Of a stretch of DNA of 22,401 bases, positions 2,190 through 21,415 are shown piece after piece; position 1 is the first letter of the stretch, and every line of letters starts with the position of its first letter. The notes under the pieces are model-generated. The model was not told the origin of the DNA. It ran no database searches and worked only from the letters and a program-made list of their open reading frames with translations. The stretch is from a virus: positions 1 through 22,401 of the IMG/VR virus record IMGVR_UViG_3300006030_000120. The stretch is one strand, 5' to 3'. Both the position numbers and the translations under genes were made by a program.

Positions 2190-3080
2190 ATGTGTTTATT
2201 GGTAGTATGTAAGCCTAACTCTACACCTAGTAGGCAGGACTTACACAACGGCGCATGCTCTAACCCTCACGGGTATGGGTTTGCTATCGTTGCTGACGGC
2301 AAGATTATTACCGAGCGTAGTATGTCTGCCAAGAAATCTATTCGCAGGTTTCTACACTTACGCAAGCAATACCCTAACGGCTATGCCATGTGGCATGCTA
2401 GGTACGCTACGCATGGTGTCAAGAACGAGCAGAACTGTCACCCGTTCCAAGTCGGTGACGACCCACAGACTTATCTCGCCCACAATGGTGTGCTAGATAC
2501 CTTTATCGCAGATGGCGACAAGCGTAGCGATACGCGTGTATTCGCTGAGGATACCCTGCCTAAACTCGGTGGTGTCGCTGCTCTCAATGATGAGAATATC
2601 TATCGCATGATAGAGTCATGGGCTACGGGTAGCAAGATTGCGGTGCTATCTGTGAACCCTGTCGCTGAGTATCAACTCTATCTTATCAACGAGAAGTTAG
2701 GTACATGGGACGATGACGGCGTGTGGTGGTCTAACTCTAGTTACAAGCGGACAACCTACACCTACACCCCTAGTGTCAAGCAGTCCGACTCTGTAATCAT
2801 AGGTTACGCTGAGGACGAGAAAGAATTTTGGGAGAAGCAAGAGGACTACCTCAACAGGTACGAGGACGGCGGTGTGATAGACTTATGCCCTATGTGTGAG
2901 GCTATGATAGACTTAGAACAGTCGCCCGAGTCTTGCGAGTTCTGTGCTTCATGTCTGTATTGCTTCCAGCTACCGCTAGACTGTGACTGCTACGACCCCA
3001 AGCACAAGGCTCACTCTCGTGGGTTTGAGTTCGACAACGAGTGGACTATGAGTAAGTCCTATGACTCGCTATTGATTTGA
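2190..3080 (+). CDS. Class II glutamine amidotransferase with C-terminal cysteine-rich domain
   Basis: The 296-residue protein begins Met-Cys, and Cys2 is the expected N-terminal nucleophile once Met is removed, which fixes the start (GAGGAGAG site upstream). Class II motifs follow in order: NPHGYGF (25-31), HARYATHG (69-76, glutamine-binding Arg), NCHPF (82-86), LAHNGVL (96-102, oxyanion-hole Asn-Gly) and SDTRVFAE (113-120). The enzyme would hydrolyse glutamine to release ammonia. Residues 233-267 add eight cysteines (233, 236, 249, 252, 255, 258, 265, 267), probably zinc-binding and not part of the minimal amidotransferase. No synthase domain is fused, so the adjacent amidoligase is the likely partner; that partnership is inferred. 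Confidence 0.85.
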   Translation: MCLLVVCKPNSTPSRQDLHNGACSNPHGYGFAIVADGKIITERSMSAKKSIRRFLHLRKQYPNGYAMWHARYATHGVKNEQNCHPFQVGDDPQTYLAHNGVLDTFIADGDKRSDTRVFAEDTLPKLGGVAALNDENIYRMIESWATGSKIAVLSVNPVAEYQLYLINEKLGTWDDDGVWWSNSSYKRTTYTYTPSVKQSDSVIIGYAEDEKEFWEKQEDYLNRYEDGGVIDLCPMCEAMIDLEQSPESCEFCASCLYCFQLPLDCDCYDPKHKAHSRGFEFDNEWTMSKSYDSLLI

Positions 3081-11939: not shown

Positions 11940-13916
11940 TTATACTGTCCTAATGGTCATAGTTAGAATACCACCATAACCAGTAAATCCTCTGTCAGGT
12001 GGTGTTGCACGGTTGAATGTAATTTGTTCAATGACACATTGGCGTGACTCACCAGTAGTCAAGTCTTGCCATGTGACAACATCTCCATCTTCTTCAATAG
12101 CTTCAAGCTGACCGATTCTATCAAAGGCACGGCCTTCATATCCGACCATGACATTGTACTTGTCAGTCTCTACATCGAAGCAGTAGACGGGGAATCTTAT
12201 GACTCGCTGGCGAGGCGTAGCAATAGTAGCCTTAGCCTGATAGCCCTTGAATGTTGGGCCCTTGGTTGTGTCAGTTGCGTCCCGGTATAGAATAAACTTA
12301 TATGCTACATACTCTTGTGAGCCAGTAGGTTGTGATGTAGTAACTTCAACAGGCGAAACATTGGCATCGTATGATATGATGTCGTACTCAGTGCCTTCAG
12401 CATCTACAGTTTCTAGTGTCATAGAACCGTAGGTGTATTCACCACGAGCAAGTAAGCGCTTAAAGTTCTTAGGTTCTAGGGTATTGTAGCGGATGTAACC
12501 TGTAGTCAGGTATCCTGTTGTCATCAATGTGCTAGCTGTCTCAGAGTATACGTAGCCGTCAGCACTACCATTGTTTGCTGTGCAGTAAGCAAGCCTATCT
12601 GTCTCACCTAAGAAAGCGCAAGATGTAGTCTTATGTCCTGATACACCAGGATAGTATATGTCGTTAGCATATGGGAATATGAGTGTAGATATTTCATTTG
12701 ACAAGTCCATGCGGATTACCCCAGGAGCCCCGTCAACACCTGTTGCACACCAAACATATCTGTCACGGGCAGCAAAGTCATAGCAAGGCTGGCTTGTCTC
12801 TACTACAAGTGGACCATAAGTCAATGAGCCATCAGCATCTACGTTGGCTACACGGATACCCTTGTTGGTGCCAATCATCATTCTGCCGAGGTAGTAGTAA
12901 ATCTTATGGATAATCTCACCAGCAGGCATTTCAGCAGCAGTCACAGCCTGATTCAAGGTAGGCATAGTACCGTTGGTATTGAGTGTAAACTTATAGATAT
13001 TGGACTGAACACCGCTGTATCCTGATATGTAGATAGCAGCACCAGATGCAGTGATGCTAGTGAAGATATGGTCAGCATCTCCATGAGTGTAGACAGCGGT
13101 AGGCAGGGACGAAGCGTTGGATGAGAACTCATAGACAGAGTTATTGGCGCACATAATGATACGCTCTTTGACATACTCCATTACAGCATTAGTTACTGTA
13201 ATACCAGCAGCGGTGAACATAACCGTAGGAGATGTTGTTGATGTGCCAGTTAATGCCTTTTTATTTACCTCAAGTTTACCTGACGGACCAGTATCGTTTG
13301 TCACCCAGAAAGCTGTAGTTCCATCATCACAGATAGCATAGACTTTGTCATCAGTTCCTGCGTTGTAATCAATGAAATGAGTTACGGTACCTGCAGTATC
13401 AATCTTGTCAACATCGTACTCATCATGCAGTAGTACTCCATTAGTGTTATTCCATTTGATAGAGCGTAGCTGTTGGAATGCACGGCCATTAGTTTCAATC
13501 GGGCCAGTTACATTGTGTCCCTGTGTGCTACTACGAAGTAGCGTAGCCTGACCAATCTCCCATACATTAACACCCTTGCTATCAGCAAAGCGGTATGTGC
13601 TATCCCCGGGCAATAGTGCTGGGTCATAGAATGTAATACCAGTTCCTTCATGGAAGGAGGACTGGCTGCGTAGCCACCAACCAGTAAGTGACTGCTCACC
13701 TGGCTCTGTTTGGTTATCAAACTGGTCCTTACGGAATGGTGCAGTCTGACGGATATAAGGGTTCTGGTCGCTAATTGCGTAGATGAATGGCATACCACCA
13801 ATAGCTACATCATAAGCAATATCAGTGTTCTGCCAAATGGATGCATCCGAAAGTACGCCAACGTCAACGGCAACCGCACGCGTTGCACGACCTTCGGTAA
13901 TATCACGACCAGCCAC
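11940..13916 (-). CDS. Large virion protein, probable tail component
   Basis: The 658-residue protein is rich in Gly, Thr, Tyr and Asp and strand-forming throughout, with repeated blocks of the type VYAICDDGTTAFWVTND, IFTSITASGAAIYISGYSG, RMMIGTNKGIRVANV and RYVWCATGVDG that look like propeller blades (about residues 200-440). The end (FTGYGGILTMTIRTV) and the segment TGESRQCVIEQITFN resemble tail domains. The GTG start has AGGAG upstream. Its place in the late operon, near the lysis genes, suggests a distal tail or host-contact protein. No enzyme motif seen. Confidence 0.6.
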   Translation of the reverse strand: MAGRDITEGRATRAVAVDVGVLSDASIWQNTDIAYDVAIGGMPFIYAISDQNPYIRQTAPFRKDQFDNQTEPGEQSLTGWWLRSQSSFHEGTGITFYDPALLPGDSTYRFADSKGVNVWEIGQATLLRSSTQGHNVTGPIETNGRAFQQLRSIKWNNTNGVLLHDEYDVDKIDTAGTVTHFIDYNAGTDDKVYAICDDGTTAFWVTNDTGPSGKLEVNKKALTGTSTTSPTVMFTAAGITVTNAVMEYVKERIIMCANNSVYEFSSNASSLPTAVYTHGDADHIFTSITASGAAIYISGYSGVQSNIYKFTLNTNGTMPTLNQAVTAAEMPAGEIIHKIYYYLGRMMIGTNKGIRVANVDADGSLTYGPLVVETSQPCYDFAARDRYVWCATGVDGAPGVIRMDLSNEISTLIFPYANDIYYPGVSGHKTTSCAFLGETDRLAYCTANNGSADGYVYSETASTLMTTGYLTTGYIRYNTLEPKNFKRLLARGEYTYGSMTLETVDAEGTEYDIISYDANVSPVEVTTSQPTGSQEYVAYKFILYRDATDTTKGPTFKGYQAKATIATPRQRVIRFPVYCFDVETDKYNVMVGYEGRAFDRIGQLEAIEEDGDVVTWQDLTTGESRQCVIEQITFNRATPPDRGFTGYGGILTMTIRTV

Positions 13917-13924
13917 TTATTCTC

Positions 13925-14647
13925 CTAGCCTTGTTGTTCTTTTAACTTCTCTTTTAATTGTTCGTTAGTCCAGTACATAGCATAGTAGTCATAGTCAAGC
14001 GAGAAACGCTTCATGTGTTTGACTATCGCCCCGGTATGTGCATGTAGTGGGATGCCTGCCGCTTTCATGCGGCGGAAGAAGATGATATCTTCACCGACGA
14101 AATGGTCATCAACACCATCGCCAGTCTCCATAAACATACCCTTGCCAGGGTGAGCTGCTCTCATCTTTGGTACGATAGACTTGTGCATCAGCACAAATCC
14201 AAAGCCAGCACAGTCACACTTGATGACTTCATCTTTAGGTAGTGGGTGATGGTACCTGATTTGGAATTCATCAACATCATCAAAGAGTACAGGGAAGGGA
14301 CGCATTAAGCTACCCTCATTCTCTTTAGAGATGAAGTAGACACCGCTGACAACAGGACGATTAATCTTGTCTGCCGTCTTCCACAGTTTAGCCATAGCAT
14401 CTAGGCTAAGGACTATGTCTGAATCTACCCACAGTAGCCAGTCAGTCTTAATCTTATCTGCCCAATGGTCAAAGAGTACTTGGCGTTGTCTGCCAATCTG
14501 ATTACCTTGGACTCGGATACTGGTGTGAATAGGCATACCGTTGGCACCGCCAGTAATTACTGCTGTCATTAACCCTTCGGTAAATTTGCCGTCAGTTGTG
14601 CCATTGTCACACCAGCCGATTGCTACAGTTTCATTCTTTTGAATCAT
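13925..14647 (-). CDS. Glycosyltransferase, GT-A (family 2-like)
   Basis: The 240-residue protein shows a nucleotide-sugar transferase core: RQRQVLFDHWAD, WLLWVDSDIVL (70-80, with the metal-binding DxD at 75-77), RPVVSGVYF, CDCAGFGFVLMHKS and HFVGEDIIFFRRMKAAG (182-198, with the catalytic acidic pair), then a late His (VKHMKRF). It would transfer a sugar from an activated donor to an unknown acceptor in the cytoplasm. Its site among tail genes suggests glycosylation of virion proteins or of host surface molecules. GTAGGGG precedes the ATG. Confidence 0.8.
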   Translation of the reverse strand: MIQKNETVAIGWCDNGTTDGKFTEGLMTAVITGGANGMPIHTSIRVQGNQIGRQRQVLFDHWADKIKTDWLLWVDSDIVLSLDAMAKLWKTADKINRPVVSGVYFISKENEGSLMRPFPVLFDDVDEFQIRYHHPLPKDEVIKCDCAGFGFVLMHKSIVPKMRAAHPGKGMFMETGDGVDDHFVGEDIIFFRRMKAAGIPLHAHTGAIVKHMKRFSLDYDYYAMYWTNEQLKEKLKEQQG

Positions 14648-14663: not shown

Positions 14664-14786
14664 TTAAATTGATGTCCAATCACGAATGGTTCCGCCACAC
14701 TTAGGGCAGATATAGGCTTCATTCTTGCCTTCTATAATCCATTGTTGATGGGCTGCGTTGTGGGCAGCCCAGTCAATGTCATTCAT
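14664..14786 (-). CDS. 40-residue zinc-knuckle protein
   Basis: A short ORF runs from MNDIDWAAHNAAHQQW to TIRDWTSI and contains a CPKCG pair at 27-31 and two His residues (9, 13) that could complete a zinc site. Its ATG overlaps the stop of the upstream gene by one base (TAATG), and it fills most of an otherwise empty 138-base gap before the glycosyltransferase. The role is unknown; coupling and the conserved-looking motif support it. Confidence 0.65.
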   Translation of the reverse strand: MNDIDWAAHNAAHQQWIIEGKNEAYICPKCGGTIRDWTSI

Positions 14787-15019
14787 TACTTGCTTAGTGC
14801 TGCGATTTCTTCTGCGGTTAGACCGAGTGCTGCAAGTTTGGCTTCGGCTGCTGCTTTGGCTGCTGCCTTTGCTTCTTCTGCTGCGATGCGTTCTGCTTCC
14901 GCTACAGCGAAGGCTGCTGCATCTGCTTCACGTTGAGCAATTTCTTCTGCAGTTAATGGGACAACGGTTTGTTCCCCCGTGCTGCAGTCTACTACCACTT
15001 TGGTTAGTGTTTCTGTCAT
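14786..15019 (-). CDS. Small Ala/Glu-rich coiled-coil protein
   Basis: The 77-residue protein has a short strand region (TKVVVDCSTGEQTVVPLT) and a long, mostly Ala/Glu/Lys helix from about residue 23 to 68, ending in GLTAEEIAALSK. Similar small proteins occur near phage tail-fibre genes, where they may act as chaperones or assembly factors; that link is an inference from position. The ATG follows AAAGGGA. It is coupled to the next small gene by TAATG. Confidence 0.6.
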   Translation of the reverse strand: MTETLTKVVVDCSTGEQTVVPLTAEEIAQREADAAAFAVAEAERIAAEEAKAAAKAAAEAKLAALGLTAEEIAALSK

Positions 15020-15034
15020 TTGTGTTATCCCTTT

Positions 15035-15565
15035 CTATAGGATTCCGTAGAGTGTTGCGGTTGTATATTGGACAAAACTTTTTGCATTTCCGTTATTATC
15101 TTCTGTTTTTAGTGTAATAGAAGTTATGGCTGCTGTGTTAGACCATAAACCAGCCACCATATTCTGTCTACCGTCAGTTGCATTATTTTCATTGACTCCG
15201 TCAATACTTACAGATTTATTAGTGTTTCCTGTATAGTTTGGAATATAAAATGTGTTGTTACTAAAAACACTCGTTGTAGCAGTTAGCGATGTTATATAAG
15301 ATGAAAGCGAATTTGCTCCAGTTGGAGAAATTGAACCACTGCCAGAACCATATCCGTAAAGAAATTTTGATGAATATCCAGTTGTAGAACTATTAAATTG
15401 CATATAGATACCACCAAAAGGTACACCTGCCTGATTGTCGTTGTTTCGTGCACTGGTAAATAAAAGCAAATCAGTGTACCCACTAGGAATATTTGTAAAT
15501 TCAATCGTGCTCGCCCCACCGCTACCCACAGTACTAGATGCAATCTTATATATCTGTAGTGCCAT
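15035..15565 (-). CDS. Tail-type paralogue, type A, second copy
   Basis: The 176-residue protein starts with the shared N-terminal motif TVGSGGASTIEFTNIPSGY and ends with the shared LYGI. It groups with the protein at 16662-17183: both have FxxxxxYIPNY, NKSxSxD, ENNAT, AGLW and FVQ. Small strand-rich proteins with this layout next to fibre genes are likely receptor-binding or decoration proteins, but the role is inferred. The ATG overlaps the type B stop (TAATG). It is the last of six related genes. Confidence 0.65.
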   Translation of the reverse strand: MALQIYKIASSTVGSGGASTIEFTNIPSGYTDLLLFTSARNNDNQAGVPFGGIYMQFNSSTTGYSSKFLYGYGSGSGSISPTGANSLSSYITSLTATTSVFSNNTFYIPNYTGNTNKSVSIDGVNENNATDGRQNMVAGLWSNTAAITSITLKTEDNNGNAKSFVQYTTATLYGIL

Positions 15566-16056
15566 TAGGAGTATGCCTCAATTCCGTATAGGGCAAAGGT
15601 TGAGCCCGAAGCAAAACTTTGGTCCGACATAGAAATTTCAATAGAAGATATTGCCGAGGTGCTTTGATACAGACTGACGGCTTCTGCTACACCATCGTTT
15701 GCATAGTTGCAGCGCGTGAGGTGTGTCTTATAGGTGGTTGTGTTTGAGTAGTTCATAAAGTGGGTGATGAAGTTGCCCCATTCCGTTCCAACAAACCCTA
15801 CAAGAGAAACTGGAACTGATGTAGTCCACCGAGTAGAAGATGCGGCTGACCCTGAGCCATAGATACGGGTGGTGGAATAACCACTTGTTGCGCCATTTAG
15901 TTTGTACACCAAATTATCTCCAGCAACAGTATTTTTACCGAAGCCAACAAGCACTAAATCGGTATAAGAACTTGGGATGTTTGAAAAAGTAATGTATCGC
16001 GTTGTTGATGTGAGCGTAGTCTTTTCAATCAGAGTATATGTGCCTGTCTTAGCCAT
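15565..16056 (-). CDS. Tail-type paralogue, type B, second copy
   Basis: The 163-residue protein has the family motif ITFSNIPSSYTDLVLVG near the start and SFASGSTFALYGI at the end. It pairs with 17183-17680 through HFMNYxNTTTYK and the SxxFASGSTFxLYGI ending. I start at ATG 16056, two bases after the previous stop, instead of extending to 16155, because the extension overlaps the type C gene and has no family resemblance. Predicted strand-rich virion surface protein; function inferred. Confidence 0.65.
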   Translation of the reverse strand: MAKTGTYTLIEKTTLTSTTRYITFSNIPSSYTDLVLVGFGKNTVAGDNLVYKLNGATSGYSTTRIYGSGSAASSTRWTTSVPVSLVGFVGTEWGNFITHFMNYSNTTTYKTHLTRCNYANDGVAEAVSLYQSTSAISSIEISMSDQSFASGSTFALYGIEAYS

Positions 16057-16058
16057 AG

Positions 16059-16658
16059 TTATTTCACCCCGTATAGTGCGAAGTGGGAGTGTTGTTGTAA
16101 AGTATTTGTCATAGCAGCAATTTTTATGTAACCAATTGCGCTTGTGGACATCCATACAGAGGAAACCAACGCTGCACTTCCGCCAACTCCGCCAACTGTT
16201 CCGTTTACATCTACGCCGCCAAATTTGCGCATTGTTTTATATTTATTAGTGTTCGCATAATCTAAAATGTCTATAACACCTGCACCGAAAGTGCCGCCCG
16301 TTGTTGTTCCAAAATCGTTTACGCCTTCCCAATAAGTTTGAGAAGTATCGGCTGAGGCGGCAACTGAATCGCCATTTCCTAACAAATAATGCCGCGTATA
16401 GTTCGCCCCTGTATCGGCTGAAGATACACCAACATTTATTTTGAAACTTTCTACACCAAAAGTTCCTCTGTTAGTTTGTGCGATATACCGAACCTGAAGA
16501 TGAGTGAACGTGGACGGGATTGAGGTAAATTCAACACTAGAACTCCCACCACTACCTACTACTATCTTAGCAATAGTCTCAAAGTAATTGTTGTCAGCAG
16601 CAATATCATTATACTTGGTGCCATATATTCCAGAGTTACTTATCTTGGTGATAGCCAC
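16059..16658 (-). CDS. Tail-type paralogue, type C, second copy
   Basis: The 199-residue protein starts at GTG with GGAAGGA upstream, 3 bases after the previous stop. It has a unique N-terminal 30 residues, then the family motif VGSGGSSSVEFTSIPSTF, the type C motifs HLQVR and VIDILDYANTNKYKTMR, and the end SHFALYGVK. It closely follows 17680-18264 in all these. The N-terminal extension found only in type C could anchor the protein to the fibre or another triplet member. Confidence 0.65.
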   Translation of the reverse strand: MAITKISNSGIYGTKYNDIAADNNYFETIAKIVVGSGGSSSVEFTSIPSTFTHLQVRYIAQTNRGTFGVESFKINVGVSSADTGANYTRHYLLGNGDSVAASADTSQTYWEGVNDFGTTTGGTFGAGVIDILDYANTNKYKTMRKFGGVDVNGTVGGVGGSAALVSSVWMSTSAIGYIKIAAMTNTLQQHSHFALYGVK

Positions 16659-16661
16659 AGA

Positions 16662-17183
16662 CTAGTCCTTCCTAATTCCAAATAGATATGCTGTTGAGTG
16701 TTGGACAAAACTACCTGAACTTAGACTCAACTGCATTGATGTAATTGCGCTAGTTTGAGTCCATAAACCAGCAGTAATGCCCATAAATGTTGCGGTCGCG
16801 TTATTTTCTGGAACCCAATCAGAACTTGTACTCTTATTGTTACTGCTTGTGTAGTTAGGAATATAAATTTCGCAGTTTGAGAATGTACTTGTTGTTTCAC
16901 CGCTTGTTGTAGTAATTGCTGCTCTAATTTTACCTTCGGTTGTATTAGAAGATGAAGCAACAGTTGAGCCGTTACCGCGTAAAAATATACCTTGATAATT
17001 GCTGGTGCTTGTATTGCTATTGAATTGTAAATAAACATAGTCAGGCCCAGAGGCTTGATTGCTTCTCGTAGATAATTTCACTAATAAATCCGTATAACTT
17101 TGCGGAATGGAACTAAAAGTAATACTGCTAGCCCCACCACTGCCTACTGTTACGGTGGCTATTGCTGTATATGTAAGTGCCAT
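16662..17183 (-). CDS. Tail-type paralogue, type A, first copy
   Basis: The 173-residue protein opens MALTYTAIATVTVGSGGASS, then ITFSSIPQSYTDLLVK, and carries the type A blocks CEIYIPNYTSSNNKS, PENNAT, AGLWTQTSAITS and SFVQHSTAYLFGI. It is the partner of 15035-15565; both start MAL and have the ENNAT block. The TAATG overlap with type B links the triplet. Probable strand-rich tail surface protein. Confidence 0.65.
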   Translation of the reverse strand: MALTYTAIATVTVGSGGASSITFSSIPQSYTDLLVKLSTRSNQASGPDYVYLQFNSNTSTSNYQGIFLRGNGSTVASSSNTTEGKIRAAITTTSGETTSTFSNCEIYIPNYTSSNNKSTSSDWVPENNATATFMGITAGLWTQTSAITSMQLSLSSGSFVQHSTAYLFGIRKD

Positions 17184-17680
17184 TATGCCGCCTTGATGCC
17201 GTAGAGAGTGAAGGTTGAGCCGGAAGCGAAGGTTTGTGAACTGTTATTTCTAACAAGAATTGTAGTAATTGCAGAAGTAGAACGCCACAAACTAACATTC
17301 GCATCGGTTGATTTGTTAGATTGGTTAAATCTGTTTACCATACTTTTGTAAGTAGTGGTATTTGCATAATTCATAAAATGACAAATAGCGTTTAATCTTT
17401 CTGTGCTGAACCCATCATAAGTCCCCACCATCATACCGTTGGTACTATTGCTCAACCTTGCGCTCAATGCGCTTGTGCCATTTCCATACAGCGTAGTCGT
17501 TGAATAATTGCTACCCGAATCAGAATTGACGCGAATATAAACGGTAGCCCCTGAACTGGACATAGCCGTATCTATTACTAAAACTAAATCGGTGTAACTT
17601 CCGCTTATAGAAGTAAATTCAACAGTTGCTGCCGCGCTGCTAAGCGTTGTCGTTGCAATCGGTTCGTATGTTGTAGGCAT
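17183..17680 (-). CDS. Tail-type paralogue, type B, first copy
   Basis: The 165-residue protein has the family N-terminal block ATVEFTSISGSYTDLVLV, a middle NYSTTTLYGNGTS, then HFMNYANTTTYKS and WRSTSAITTI, ending FASGSTFTLYGIKAA. These match 15565-16056 closely in the second half and much less in the first, as expected if the exposed part has diverged. Both ends overlap neighbours by TAATG. Virion role inferred. Confidence 0.65.
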   Translation of the reverse strand: MPTTYEPIATTTLSSAAATVEFTSISGSYTDLVLVIDTAMSSSGATVYIRVNSDSGSNYSTTTLYGNGTSALSARLSNSTNGMMVGTYDGFSTERLNAICHFMNYANTTTYKSMVNRFNQSNKSTDANVSLWRSTSAITTILVRNNSSQTFASGSTFTLYGIKAA

Positions 17681-18264
17681 TATGCCCCCTTAATTCCGTA
17701 TAGGGCGAAGTGGGAGTATTGGTTAAAATTACCACTATTTGCAGCAATTTTTATAGATGTAATGGCGTTTGTATTTCTCCAAGAACCACTAAACAAATAA
17801 ACGTGTCCCGAACCATTCCTATCTAAGCCTGTCAAACAACGCATTGTTTTATACTTATTAGTATTTGCATAATCTAAAATGTCAATAACTGAGACAACTG
17901 GTTCGCTAGCCCATAAACCAAAACCATAATATTGGATATTATCATTTGCCGTTGTACCAGCACTTGCCGTACTGCCATTTCCTGTTAGCCAATGAGATGA
18001 ATAATTAGAGCCTGTATCGTTATTATATGTTGCACTTAGACTTTGATTTCCAGCATAACTACCTAGACTCATAATCCGAACCTGAAGGTGAGCAAAGGTA
18101 GACGGGATTGACGTGAACTCAACATTTGAAGCACCACCACTACTAACAGTTACAGTAGCAATAGACTCATAATTGGATATAGACCCGTAGTTCCCTGCTA
18201 GGAAAGAACGACTCTTAGGTTGTCCCAGCAAGATACTAGAGGAAGATGCTCTAGTAGCAGCCAT
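17680..18264 (-). CDS. Tail-type paralogue, type C, first copy
   Basis: The 194-residue protein has a Ser-rich N-terminal extension (about 30 residues), the family block VSSGGASNVEFTSIPSTFAH, then HLQVR, NYSSHWLTGNGS, VIDILDYANTNKYKTMR and SHFALYGIKGA. It is the first gene of the first C-B-A triplet, and its ATG overlaps the preceding small virion gene (TAATG). Family identity with 16059-16658 is clear by eye; function as a tail surface protein is inferred. Confidence 0.65.
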   Translation of the reverse strand: MAATRASSSSILLGQPKSRSFLAGNYGSISNYESIATVTVSSGGASNVEFTSIPSTFAHLQVRIMSLGSYAGNQSLSATYNNDTGSNYSSHWLTGNGSTASAGTTANDNIQYYGFGLWASEPVVSVIDILDYANTNKYKTMRCLTGLDRNGSGHVYLFSGSWRNTNAITSIKIAANSGNFNQYSHFALYGIKGA

Positions 18265-18599
18265 TACGCTATTTCGCTTCCAAAGATATTGAAGGAAAGG
18301 TTGGCGGTTGAAGCATAGACAGTAATGACATCAGAGGAATCCATAGTGATACCTAAGGTCAATACTGTTGAATCAGATGCACCTACTGTCACATCATAAG
18401 CAAGGTAATGCTCGTTGGCTAGTGTTGCTCCGTTAGGACGAACAGCAATGCGGAATGTCGCAGATGATGATGCACGATTTGCTATCACAATGCTAGAGAC
18501 TACTGTTTGCGTTGCTGGTGATGATGGACAGGTGTAGGCAGTAGTTGCCGTAGTAGCCGAAGGTGCTACTTGTCCAAGTACTTTATATGTTGTTGGCAT
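18264..18599 (-). CDS. Small conserved virion-associated protein
   Basis: The 111-residue protein begins MPTTYKVLGQVAPSATTATT and continues with strands VVSSIVIANRASSSATFRIAV, then AYDVTVGASDSTVLTLGI and a closing LSFNIFGSEIA. This Ser/Thr-rich beta-sandwich-like type recurs beside fibre genes in aquatic phages, where it is uncharacterised. A good AGGAG-type site precedes the ATG. It probably contributes to the tail fibre or baseplate surface. Confidence 0.65.
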   Translation of the reverse strand: MPTTYKVLGQVAPSATTATTAYTCPSSPATQTVVSSIVIANRASSSATFRIAVRPNGATLANEHYLAYDVTVGASDSTVLTLGITMDSSDVITVYASTANLSFNIFGSEIA

Positions 18600-18611: not shown

Positions 18612-20480
18612 TTAGGCTCCCATTAATAGGAATACGGTTGGTGTTGGGTCTGTAGTTACGGCAGCCCACGAAGCGGTAGTTCCGTTTGTGGTCAAATAGT
18701 ATCCATTGTTTCCAGTCTGAGATGGTAGTCCTGACGGTGCTGCAGCCCACGCAAGTCCTGTTGCTGCTGTTGCAGATACTGTAAGAACATATCCATCAGT
18801 TGATGCTACTGTCAGAATTGCTGGAGTGTCATTAGCGCTAGCCGAAAGTATGTCACCTTTAGCATTGAAGGTAGACTTAGCAACTGCTCCATTAGCCAAG
18901 TCATATGCTGACTTAACTGAGTTAGGTGTAGCAGCCGTTGTGACAGATGTGCTAGCAGTTGAGTCTTCAAGTTGTACTGCACCAGACTGTGTTGTGGTAG
19001 CAGATTGGATAGAGATAGTTACATCCCCACCTGTTCCTCCACCTGTAATCGGGGAAGTAACGTTAACTGCGGTAATGTCGCCAGACTGAGGAGCAATCCA
19101 CTCAAGTCCGCTAGCAGTAGCAGAGTTAACGCTTAAGACATAACCATTGGTAGATGCTGCTGCCAGACGTGATGCTGTGTCTGCTGCAGAGGCTACAATC
19201 AAATCACCCTTAGCATCAAAGATAGTTGCCGATATTGCTCCAGCAAGAACCGCTGCAGCCGATGCTGCGCTGGCTGCTGCTGAAGTTGCTGATGTTGCTG
19301 CACTGGCTGCACTTGTGGCTGCAGCAGTAGCGCTAGCAGCAGCAGAGGTAGCAGATGTAGCAGCAGCACTTGCTGAGTTAGCAGCAGATGTTGCAGAAGC
19401 AGCAGCGCTTGTTGCGCTGGTGGCTGCTGCAGATGCCGATGTAGCAGAAGCAGTAGCACTATTAGAAGCCGATGTAGCCGATGTGGCTGCTGCAGCGGCA
19501 GAGTTAGAAGCCGTAGTTGCACTTGCTGCAGCGCTAGTAGCAGAAGTTGCTGCTGCCGTAGCAGAAGTCGCTGCAGAGGCTGCAGAGGTGGCTGCTGCTG
19601 TGGCTGAGGTAGATGCACTGTTGGCGCTAGTTAGGGCGTTAGAAGCGCTTGTAGCCGCGCTAGAGGCACTTGTAGCGGCAGAGGCAGCACTTGTAGCAGC
19701 CGATGCTGCTGAGGTTGCTGCAGCCGTTGCTGAGCCTAGAATGCTATCTACATAATCTTTAGGGGTAGCAGAGGATGAAATCATACCTGCTGAGGACAGA
19801 CCTGTAATTACTGGCGTACCCGATAATACAGGACTCGTCAAGGTTTTATTTGTCAGAGTCTGTGTTGCATCTACAATGACTACCGTACCTGTTGTGTTAG
19901 GTAGGGTGATTGTGTTGTCCTGTGTTGGGTCAACTACAGTCAGGGTAGTCTCATAGGCATCTGCCGTAGTACCTTCAAATACTAGGACTGCTCCAGCAGA
20001 AGCTGTTCCTGTAATTGTTGGGTCAGAAATTGTTGGTGCTGTAAGAGTCTTATTGGTAAGAGTTTGTGACTTAAGTGTACCAACAACAACACCTTCGCCG
20101 GAGCCAATGCCGTGCATTGTGTGTCCGGTACCTGAGCCATCGTTGTAGTAAGCGTCGGCTTCAGCGTGTAGGTTAGCATCGCGGAAGTCACGGCCGATTG
20201 CCATGTGGCGAACTACTGCACCCGCTGAGTGTTCCTGTGCCGATGAGCCGTCAATGGCACGAGTGATTGTAAAGGTGTTAGTGGCTACCGCCGTGGCATC
20301 TACAATTTCCTCAAGGGCGGTATCAGGGTCGATTACCAATGTGAAGGTACGACCAGAAGGGATTGTCACACCACCTAGTAGAGTAGTTCCTGAAACAACT
20401 GTCATCGAGGTTGCACCCGATGTGATTGTTCCAGTCAGCGTACTCTGCTGGCTACGGGACGAGTATTGGCGTGTTGTCAT
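18612..20480 (-). CDS. Tail fibre protein with long Ala/Ser/Thr repeat
   Basis: The 622-residue protein has an N-terminal strand-rich domain (about 1-100, with VVRHMAIGRDFRDAN), twin modules with QTLTNKTLTAPT and QTLTNKTLTSPV (about 139-240), a low-complexity Ala/Ser/Thr region (250-410) of 7-residue units such as AATSAAS, then paired repeats starting FDAKGDLIVASA and FNAKGDILSASA and ending in a short C-terminus. This is the layout of a trimeric phage tail fibre whose repeat forms a shaft; the distal part would contact the host. AGGAA precedes the ATG. Confidence 0.8.
   Translation of the reverse strand: MTTRQYSSRSQQSTLTGTITSGATSMTVVSGTTLLGGVTIPSGRTFTLVIDPDTALEEIVDATAVATNTFTITRAIDGSSAQEHSAGAVVRHMAIGRDFRDANLHAEADAYYNDGSGTGHTMHGIGSGEGVVVGTLKSQTLTNKTLTAPTISDPTITGTASAGAVLVFEGTTADAYETTLTVVDPTQDNTITLPNTTGTVVIVDATQTLTNKTLTSPVLSGTPVITGLSSAGMISSSATPKDYVDSILGSATAAATSAASAATSAASAATSASSAATSASNALTSANSASTSATAAATSAASAATSATAAATSATSAAASATTASNSAAAAATSATSASNSATASATSASAAATSATSAAASATSAANSASAAATSATSAAASATAAATSAASAATSATSAAASAASAAAVLAGAISATIFDAKGDLIVASAADTASRLAAASTNGYVLSVNSATASGLEWIAPQSGDITAVNVTSPITGGGTGGDVTISIQSATTTQSGAVQLEDSTASTSVTTAATPNSVKSAYDLANGAVAKSTFNAKGDILSASANDTPAILTVASTDGYVLTVSATAATGLAWAAAPSGLPSQTGNNGYYLTTNGTTASWAAVTTDPTPTVFLLMGA
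19251..19733 (-). repeat. Ala/Ser/Thr heptad-type coding repeat within the tail fibre
   Basis: About 160 codons encode only Ala, Ser and Thr with rare Asn or Leu, in degenerate 7-residue units (AATSATS, AAASATS, AASAATS). The DNA is correspondingly rich in imperfect 21-base repeats built from GCW/WGC triplets. The reverse strand shows a long Ala/Val-rich open frame (19147-19755), a by-product of the repeat. Such repeats can change length by recombination. Confidence 0.8.
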
Positions 20481-20488
20481 CTATGTTC

Positions 20489-21415
20489 CTATCGGCTGTA
20501 GTGAACTCGGGTTGGGAATTGACCCTGGAAGGCTGATATTTCTTCTTTGAGTCTCTGTTGATAAAGTGCAAAGATTTGACGAGCAGCGGAGTTGGCAGAG
20601 CCAAAGGAGCGCTTAGCATCAATCTCATCAGCTTGTGGGCTAATCTGGCTAGCACGAGCTGGGTCAAGGTATGTAAGTAGTCGGTAAGCTGCACCAAGGA
20701 CTACAACATCACGAGCAGTCTCGGAGTATCCTGTGGTAGTTGTGAAGTCATCTGATGTGTTAGACATTGCAGATGGTTGCTTCAAGTAGTTTACTTTAAC
20801 AGTGCGACCTGCTGTGATATAGTCACCTATGGTAACTGTCTGGGCATTGTTGCCCCATGTTGCAGATTCTGCCTTTGCGTCCCATGTCCAACGGCGAACC
20901 GGAATCCACTCTTGACTTGGCCCAATATCCTGCCAAGACATACTGAGGATATTTTCAATCAGACTACCGCCCGAGTCTGTTACCTCGTATGTTGTAACCG
21001 ATGGATTAAATGTAAATGTTGTTTGTCCAATCACCATAAGCTGTGTGCCCATAGCACGGACAGTGTCGTTGATAGCACGCTTCACTACATAGCGTGGGAA
21101 GATTGGAGAGATAGTAACCTTAGCATCAACAGCATGGGTAGCAGCAGTTGTGCCTAGATATCCGCGTCCGTATGGCGCGATAGTTGCCGTGTTGCCTACA
21201 CGGTCAAAGGATGTAATCCACATCAATTCCTCGTCAACTTCAATGATACCCTTACCTACTGAGTCAGTTGAGCCAAGGCTCAGAATCGTTGGCGAGGAAC
21301 TAGGAGAAGTTAATGTGGTGACTGCAGCCGTCAGGTATGTGCTTCTGTCCTGCTGGTATGTGTAGCCTGAGAGGTTGATTAAAACCTCATCAATCATTGA
21401 GCCAAGTGTTGTCAC
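20489..21415 (-). CDS. Virion structural protein, possible neck or connector
   Basis: The 308-residue protein has an N-terminal helix (LGSMIDEVLINLSGYTY), a strand-rich region with IIEVDEELMWITSFDR and APYGRGYLGTTAATHA (about 58-93), a central helix RYVVKRAINDTVRAMG and a helical C-terminus (DVVVLGAAYRLLTYLDPARAS ... ALYQQRLKEEISAFQ). The mix suits a head-tail connector or neck protein, but no specific family is certain. GTG start with AAGGAG upstream and GTGA overlap with the previous stop. It lies just before the fibre gene. Confidence 0.55.
   Translation of the reverse strand: MTTLGSMIDEVLINLSGYTYQQDRSTYLTAAVTTLTSPSSSPTILSLGSTDSVGKGIIEVDEELMWITSFDRVGNTATIAPYGRGYLGTTAATHAVDAKVTISPIFPRYVVKRAINDTVRAMGTQLMVIGQTTFTFNPSVTTYEVTDSGGSLIENILSMSWQDIGPSQEWIPVRRWTWDAKAESATWGNNAQTVTIGDYITAGRTVKVNYLKQPSAMSNTSDDFTTTTGYSETARDVVVLGAAYRLLTYLDPARASQISPQADEIDAKRSFGSANSAARQIFALYQQRLKEEISAFQGQFPTRVHYSR

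Follow-up and report, generated by a model that had tools for sequence, protein, structure and literature searches.

Two sets of three related genes in a phage tail region

The window analysed here, a stretch of 22,401 nucleotides (nt) that makes up the complete 22.4-kb IMG/VR virus record IMGVR_UViG_3300006030_000120, carries six consecutive genes for small, related tail proteins of three types, termed C, B and A. A first-pass annotation of this DNA had described them as six related open reading frames (ORFs) in the transcription order C-B-A-C-B-A; this order was confirmed, the motifs quoted for each type are present and the limits of the two blocks are correct. The six genes are the following:

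17680..18264, minus strand: C1, putative type-C head protein of 194 amino acids with an N-terminal leader, first gene of set 1 (C clade)
17183..17680, minus strand: B1, putative type-B head protein of 165 amino acids without leader, its start overlapping the C1 stop by 1 nt
16662..17183, minus strand: A1, putative type-A head protein of 173 amino acids without leader, its start overlapping the B1 stop by 1 nt
16059..16658, minus strand: C2, putative type-C head protein of 199 amino acids with GTG start and leader, first gene of set 2 (C clade)
15565..16056, minus strand: B2, putative type-B head protein of 163 amino acids (B clade)
15035..15565, minus strand: A2, putative type-A head protein of 176 amino acids (A clade)

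For B2, the ATG at 16056 fits as the start codon; the program-made ORF list had placed it upstream, at 16155.

Pairwise identity between genes of the same type was 44% for C1 and C2, 46% for B1 and B2 and 49% for A1 and A2 (shuffle Z 33-41), and that between types ranged from 29 to 36% within the six. Because the between-type scores (shuffle Z 9-20) are far above chance, all six genes are homologous. A profile search of the record retrieved exactly these six members, and the 111-amino-acid protein encoded upstream of C1 fell outside the family (|Z| < 4 in the shuffle test). The descent of the three types from a single ancestral gene, as first proposed, is supported by this cross-type homology and by an IQ-TREE phylogeny of 74 proteins, in which C, B and A formed three fully supported clades (100/98, 100/99 and 100/99) and genes grouped by type, not by position. 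In agreement with this, positions 1, 2 and 3 were pure clades in a FastTree phylogeny (93/93, 93/93 and 92/92). Since the three clades extend across the relatives, the triplication is, as judged from the trees, ancient; it is present in every relative examined and is not particular to the window phage.

C, B and A are maintained as a unit

Triplet number and gene order were compared across loci collected from scans of viral contigs, isolate phage E7 and one contig of an uncultured actinobacterium metagenome-assembled genome (MAG), the latter found when genome contigs were searched with the C-type alignment. The collection comprised 278 loci (247 distinct; L numbers below), which were selected by similarity to the window proteins; many of the contigs are fragments, and counts of locus pairs are non-independent. 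Loci were typed with three type-specific profiles, with a median margin of 95 bits. Exactly one C-B-A set was present in 207 of the 247 distinct loci, a count that includes loci near a contig edge, and eight records contained two complete sets (the window, L024, L027, L249, L221, L174, L283 and L207). Partial extra copies were found in L212 (CBABA) and L156 (CBAB). All three types were present in every one of the 182 loci with at least 700 nt of flank on both sides, none of which lacked a type, and among the 247 distinct loci there was no complete triplet in any order other than C-B-A. Start and stop codons were spaced by -10 to +25 nt at 256 of 268 C-B junctions and 222 of 241 B-A junctions, the commonest arrangement being a 1-nt overlap, as in TAATG.

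The proteins share a predicted beta-sandwich domain that resembles tail-fibre domains

Each of the genes encodes the same domain of ~165 residues, which was all-beta in both models made: AlphaFold produced confident all-beta sandwiches with matching strand order for C1 (predicted local distance difference test score, pLDDT, 90.9) and A1 (pLDDT 93.9). The models matched the GH32 C-terminal sandwich, galectins, legume lectins, Pgp3 and C1q in the PDB with Z of 6-8, values that do not identify the fold; the C1q/TNF-like and galectin-like matches (Z 6.1-6.9) lie below the level of trust. A library of viral structure predictions returned 118 entries at E <= 0.001; among the best matches (E from 1.6e-20 to about 1e-9), those with names included proteins labelled tail fibre, side tail fibre (Stf), FN3, collagen or glycine-rich. 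By eye, homologues fused to FN3 or glycine-rich domains were recognized in L124, L148, L024, L068 and L147, and in L111 and L117 the domain stands at the end of a fibre-like protein. The domain is thus also part of tail-fibre proteins, as both the viral structural matches and the fibre-like fusions indicate. Moreover, the cassette belongs to the tail-fibre module, lying directly after a fibre of PHROG 38058 and a small tail protein. These three lines of evidence support the receptor-binding tip role that had been suggested for the six proteins.

The homologous region of E7 and F5, two 'Ca. Planktophila' phages available as isolates, has been described as a hypervariable island possibly tied to host recognition, in which three proteins were named with DUF2541 (PMC10202952); judging from their position, these three would be C, B and A. 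HMMER found no DUF2541 (PF10807) match in the window (an E. coli control was positive), and none in the E7 trio at E <= 5; the 84 C and 92 B members searched likewise gave none at E <= 0.01. Membership of this family was consequently rejected on HMMER, at which level a more sensitive profile-profile link is still possible. Weak Pfam matches of B1 to AcrF1, DUF6711 and DUF2341 were all below cut-offs and were dismissed as chance, and a sequence search of solved structures gave no relative.

Under an alternative reading the three proteins would have no adhesin function and would instead serve in virion decoration, superinfection exclusion or fibre assembly, their variation having some other cause. 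No Pfam or PHROGs family names the C, B or A proteins, and small proteins of unknown role follow the cassettes, both of which this alternative would accommodate. However, the place after the fibre, the fusions to fibre domains, the fibre-like structural neighbours and the report of a hypervariable island all point to host recognition, and we regard a non-adhesin function as very improbable.

Type C carries a leader that follows the phage backbone

An N-terminal extension was found only in C (median 15 residues, compared with a median of 0 in B and A). In the window, leader alignments delimit two such extensions:

18175..18264, minus strand: C1 leader of ~30 amino acids, MAATRASSSSILLGQPKSRSFLAGN..., proposed slot-1 docking peptide
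16581..16658, minus strand: C2 leader of ~26 amino acids, MAITKISNSGIYGTKYNDIAADNNY, proposed slot-2 docking peptide

The C leader follows the phage backbone even where the C head has been replaced: in 48 non-independent pairs with a close backbone and a swapped C head, the values were 73% for the leader and 48.5% for the head, random leaders giving 19%. The leaders closest to that of C2 were the slot-2 leaders of L174 and L221. Across four two-set phages (the window, L027, L221 and L174), leaders of the same slot scored 59 and leaders of different slots 23, and the observed slot labelling was the best possible one (rank 2 of 16 including its mirror). Heads showed no slot preference in these four. 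The pattern suggests that leaders act as docking addresses.

One type of leader, exemplified by MAIRSLKNGTFSRSLLVGN of the L007 C protein, also opens glycine-rich tail proteins that adjoin the cassette in E7, L273, L059 and others. The two glycine-rich proteins of isolate E7 (L151:12175-13974), the first of which matched PF21722, thus begin with a leader of the type found in some C proteins, so that two kinds of head may use a common docking peptide.

Head cores are exchanged gene by gene

Comparison of closely related loci showed that head cores are exchanged singly between phages, gene ends and junctions staying constant. L128 and L129 differ only in B, and L047 and L048 only in A; C and A differ with B kept in L029/L058 and L037/L081, and B and A differ with C kept in L050/L053. 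In L079/L086 all three cores differ, the gene junctions being 96-99% and the downstream DNA 99% identical. Over the close-backbone pairs, identity stayed at ~0.8-0.95 in the codons at either end of a gene, with the core at the level of unrelated phages. Distance correlations calculated on equal locus sets were high between backbone genes (r 0.70-0.91), intermediate between cassette genes (r 0.20-0.45, highest for B-A) and low between cassette and backbone (r -0.01 to 0.22).

That each gene is swapped independently would be expected if C, B and A were three separate receptor-binding homotrimers that sit at different places on the tail and recognise one receptor each, encoded in one operon with no single complex. 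Phage fibre-tip heads are commonly homotrimers, and the family includes free-standing as well as fibre-fused versions, which also favours separate proteins. Yet independent adhesins should be lost and gained singly, and none of the 182 well-flanked loci lacked a type; where copies had been added, they were mostly entire sets (8 complete against 2-3 partial); the leader is absent from B and A; and cassette genes covary more with each other than with the backbone. We therefore consider three separate proteins unlikely, although this remains the most serious competitor of a joint head.

The junctions themselves are sites of insertion. In seven loci the inserted segment was in each case an HNH-type endonuclease-like ORF:

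L116:2034-2609, HNH-like ORF, HNH_3 confirmed
L119:8119-8694, HNH-like ORF
L087:1009-1578, HNH-like ORF
L128:2465-2887, HNH-like ORF
L129:1162-1551, HNH-like ORF
L133:4166-4516, HNH-like ORF
L070:10546-11046, HNH-like ORF

HNH homing-endonuclease-like ORFs of two kinds were seen about two dozen times at a C/B, B/A or A/downstream junction. Of 33 such ORFs, 27 are no more than 300 nt away from a cassette gene, a count that is biased because both queries were taken from cassettes. In the pair L128/L129, the HNH gene stands on opposite sides of B. These ORFs may drive the exchange of heads; the window had no HNH_3 match. Two other sources of variation were rejected for the window, in which neither a reverse transcriptase (PF00078), as in a diversity-generating retroelement, nor a serine invertase (PF00239), as in an invertible fibre switch, was matched, absences that are local since the record is a fragment. 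The alternative copies in the window are direct, not inverted.

The two sets of the window are as different as those of random phages

Both sets of the window have the same gene order and the same types, and the first-pass annotation had explained them by duplication of the whole triplet followed by divergence. This part of its account was not supported. Compared across loci, set 1 and set 2 were 54% (C), 46% (B) and 52% (A) identical, against medians of 49, 48 and 50% for random phages; over the eight two-set phages, same-type identity between sets was 32-54%, against random-pair medians of 48-50%. In the IQ-TREE phylogeny the nearest sisters of C1 (L007), B1 (L074), C2 (L035/L057) and A2 (L082) each belong to a different phage, and no near relative of B2 was found by search. 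B1 and L074 were 91% identical in amino acid sequence. At the DNA level, C1 was 93% identical to L007, its nearest match, over 478 nt of core, C2 94% identical to L035 over 501 nt and A1 95.6% identical to L134 over 408 nt. In L007, L035 and L134, this 93-96% identity was restricted to the core of a single gene, and the remaining alignments of the window to L007 and L035 were mostly at about 65-70%. High identity confined to cores between diverged flanks indicates exchange between phages. L007 and L035 have in turn much upstream DNA in common (99-100%) and different C cores, one matching window C1 and the other C2. Beside these comparisons we noted that the cassette of L134 (8725-10456), whose A core is the one 95.6% identical to A1, is split into several short ORFs by frameshifts, a break due to sequencing error or decay.

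A local tandem duplication followed by fast divergence would explain the shared order and types, and the leaders suggest that a two-set layout may be of long standing in the lineage. Nevertheless, the sets differ in all eight two-set phages about as much as those of random phages, or more, the closest relatives of the window genes sit in different phages, and the core-only identities reveal exchange; we give such a duplication little credence. The head cores of the window instead look as if they had been acquired by exchange with other phages. The arrangement in two sets may nonetheless be old, because in several two-set phages C1 leaders and C2 leaders are each specific to their slot. An assembly chimera was also thought unlikely as the source of the double set, seven other contigs having two sets. 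By eye, the end of A1 had no stretch in common with the end of the usual upstream neighbour of C.

Surrounding genes and probable host

Beyond the six genes, the following neighbours were identified:

18612..20480, minus strand: main tail fibre of 622 amino acids (PHROG 38058 tail fibre protein, E 2e-119; same position in E7), the likely carrier of the heads
18264..18599, minus strand: small tail protein of 111 amino acids between the fibre and set 1 (PHROG tail-fibre profiles, E 4e-5; homologue in E7)
14786..15019, minus strand: 77-amino-acid protein directly 3' of A2, with similar small ORFs after many cassettes
13925..14647, minus strand: glycosyltransferase (PHROG 34859, E 4e-103), downstream boundary of the variable region
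11940..13916, minus strand: conserved tail protein of 658 amino acids (PHROG 11667, unknown function; homologue in E7), used as backbone marker

The window and E7 share the order adaptor-like protein, tail fibre, 109/111-amino-acid protein, C-B-A, glycosyltransferase and large tail protein, to which E7 adds two glycine-rich proteins. The window encodes a WhiB-type regulator, a sigma factor and a glycosyltransferase, as do E7 and F5 (PMC10202952). On the strength of this gene content and order, the host of the window phage is most likely a 'Ca. Nanopelagicales'-type actinobacterium. The match of positions 20489-21415 to an SU10-like adaptor protein suggests a short-tailed (podovirus-like) virion. 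The 77-amino-acid protein (VVVDCSTGEQT...LTAEEIAQREAD) has small counterparts behind 86 of 213 cassettes; in both L283 and L207, one of these ORFs lies between the two sets. Elsewhere in the window, an amidoligase-like protein (963-2174) adjoins a class-II glutamine amidotransferase-like protein (2190-3080).

A proposed three-slot receptor-binding head

All in all, we consider it fairly probable that the six genes of the window amount to two obligate receptor-binding cassettes of three genes each, carried by a 'Ca. Nanopelagicales'-type actinophage, and that the products of each would form a hetero-oligomer and bind the host. The heterotrimer that the first-pass annotation had raised as a possibility likewise gains support of an indirect kind. 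C would dock on the tail fibre via its leader, and B and A would join it to give a mixed head made from translationally coupled genes. The conserved gene ends would both hold the subunits together and supply homology for recombination; the variable cores would face the host and bind surface glycans or other receptors, so that swapping any one subunit could alter specificity. As its two sets have different leaders, the window phage would probably expose a different head at each of two docking sites, which could enable it to recognise two variants of a receptor. We propose a more detailed version only tentatively, the whole combination being somewhat doubtful: an obligate 1:1:1 hetero-oligomer with C as anchor, in which the alleles of each slot come from a large common pool, specificity is set by C x B x A, C leaders serve as address tags that direct heads to distinct docking sites, and HNH homing endonucleases specific to the junctions aid the exchange of single genes.

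The isolates fit this picture. A single host strain was used to isolate both E7 and F5, their genomes are reported to align over 63.6%, and their homologous region is reported to under-recruit in metagenomes (PMC10202952). Their cassettes are nearly identical (C 99.8, B 100 and A 100%, with 1.5-kb flanks at 99.1% and 93.0%), which fits selection for one specificity.

Four points weigh against a joint receptor-binding head. E7 and F5 are a single pair, and their common cassette could reflect recent common descent. The PDB matches are weak (Z <= 8.1), so a lectin-like function is not established. The C2 leader of the window does not have the LAGN ending. Finally, one-gene swapping is unexpected if a close fit of subunits is needed, and requires that the interfaces lie in the conserved parts.

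Several known systems resemble the cassette in part. The second genomic island of the Planktophila phages E7 and F5 has the same genes, with one C-B-A set located behind the fibre and a pair of glycine-rich ('collagen-like') proteins. Pelagiphage metaviromic islands with C1q-domain receptor-binding proteins (PMC3909814) likewise place a hypervariable head domain with a conserved N-terminus by the tail fibre, and A1 has weak fold similarity to C1q heads (Z 6.1-6.6); those proteins are described as single genes (PMC3909814), whereas here three distinct obligate paralogues are exchanged gene by gene. T-even gp38 adhesins also have conserved segments around hypervariable ones at the fibre tip. However, gp38 is a single protein whose variable segments are separated by glycine-rich motifs, and C, B and A are beta-sandwiches in whose type alignment consensus lines no such alternating motifs were found. 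In the branched multi-adhesin complexes of Ackermannviridae (PMC11414711), several receptor-binding proteins of one phage are joined in a complex, as proposed for C, B and A; these are separate tail spikes, unlike the small one-fold paralogues described here, which form a fixed triplet and are added as sets.

Three such proteins had already been reported in the hypervariable island of the two Planktophila isolates (PMC10202952); its main text does not describe their paralogy, their constant order, the swapping of single genes, the leaders or the occurrence of double sets, which are new here. As two isolated phages carry the cassette, the proposal is directly testable. If true, it would represent an unusual receptor-binding head made of three different paralogues. 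Phage pressure has been held responsible for the strain diversity of freshwater 'Ca. Nanopelagicales', which are abundant in lakes (PMC10202952), and a three-slot swappable cassette would let a phage lineage track the diversity of its hosts by combination, not mutation.

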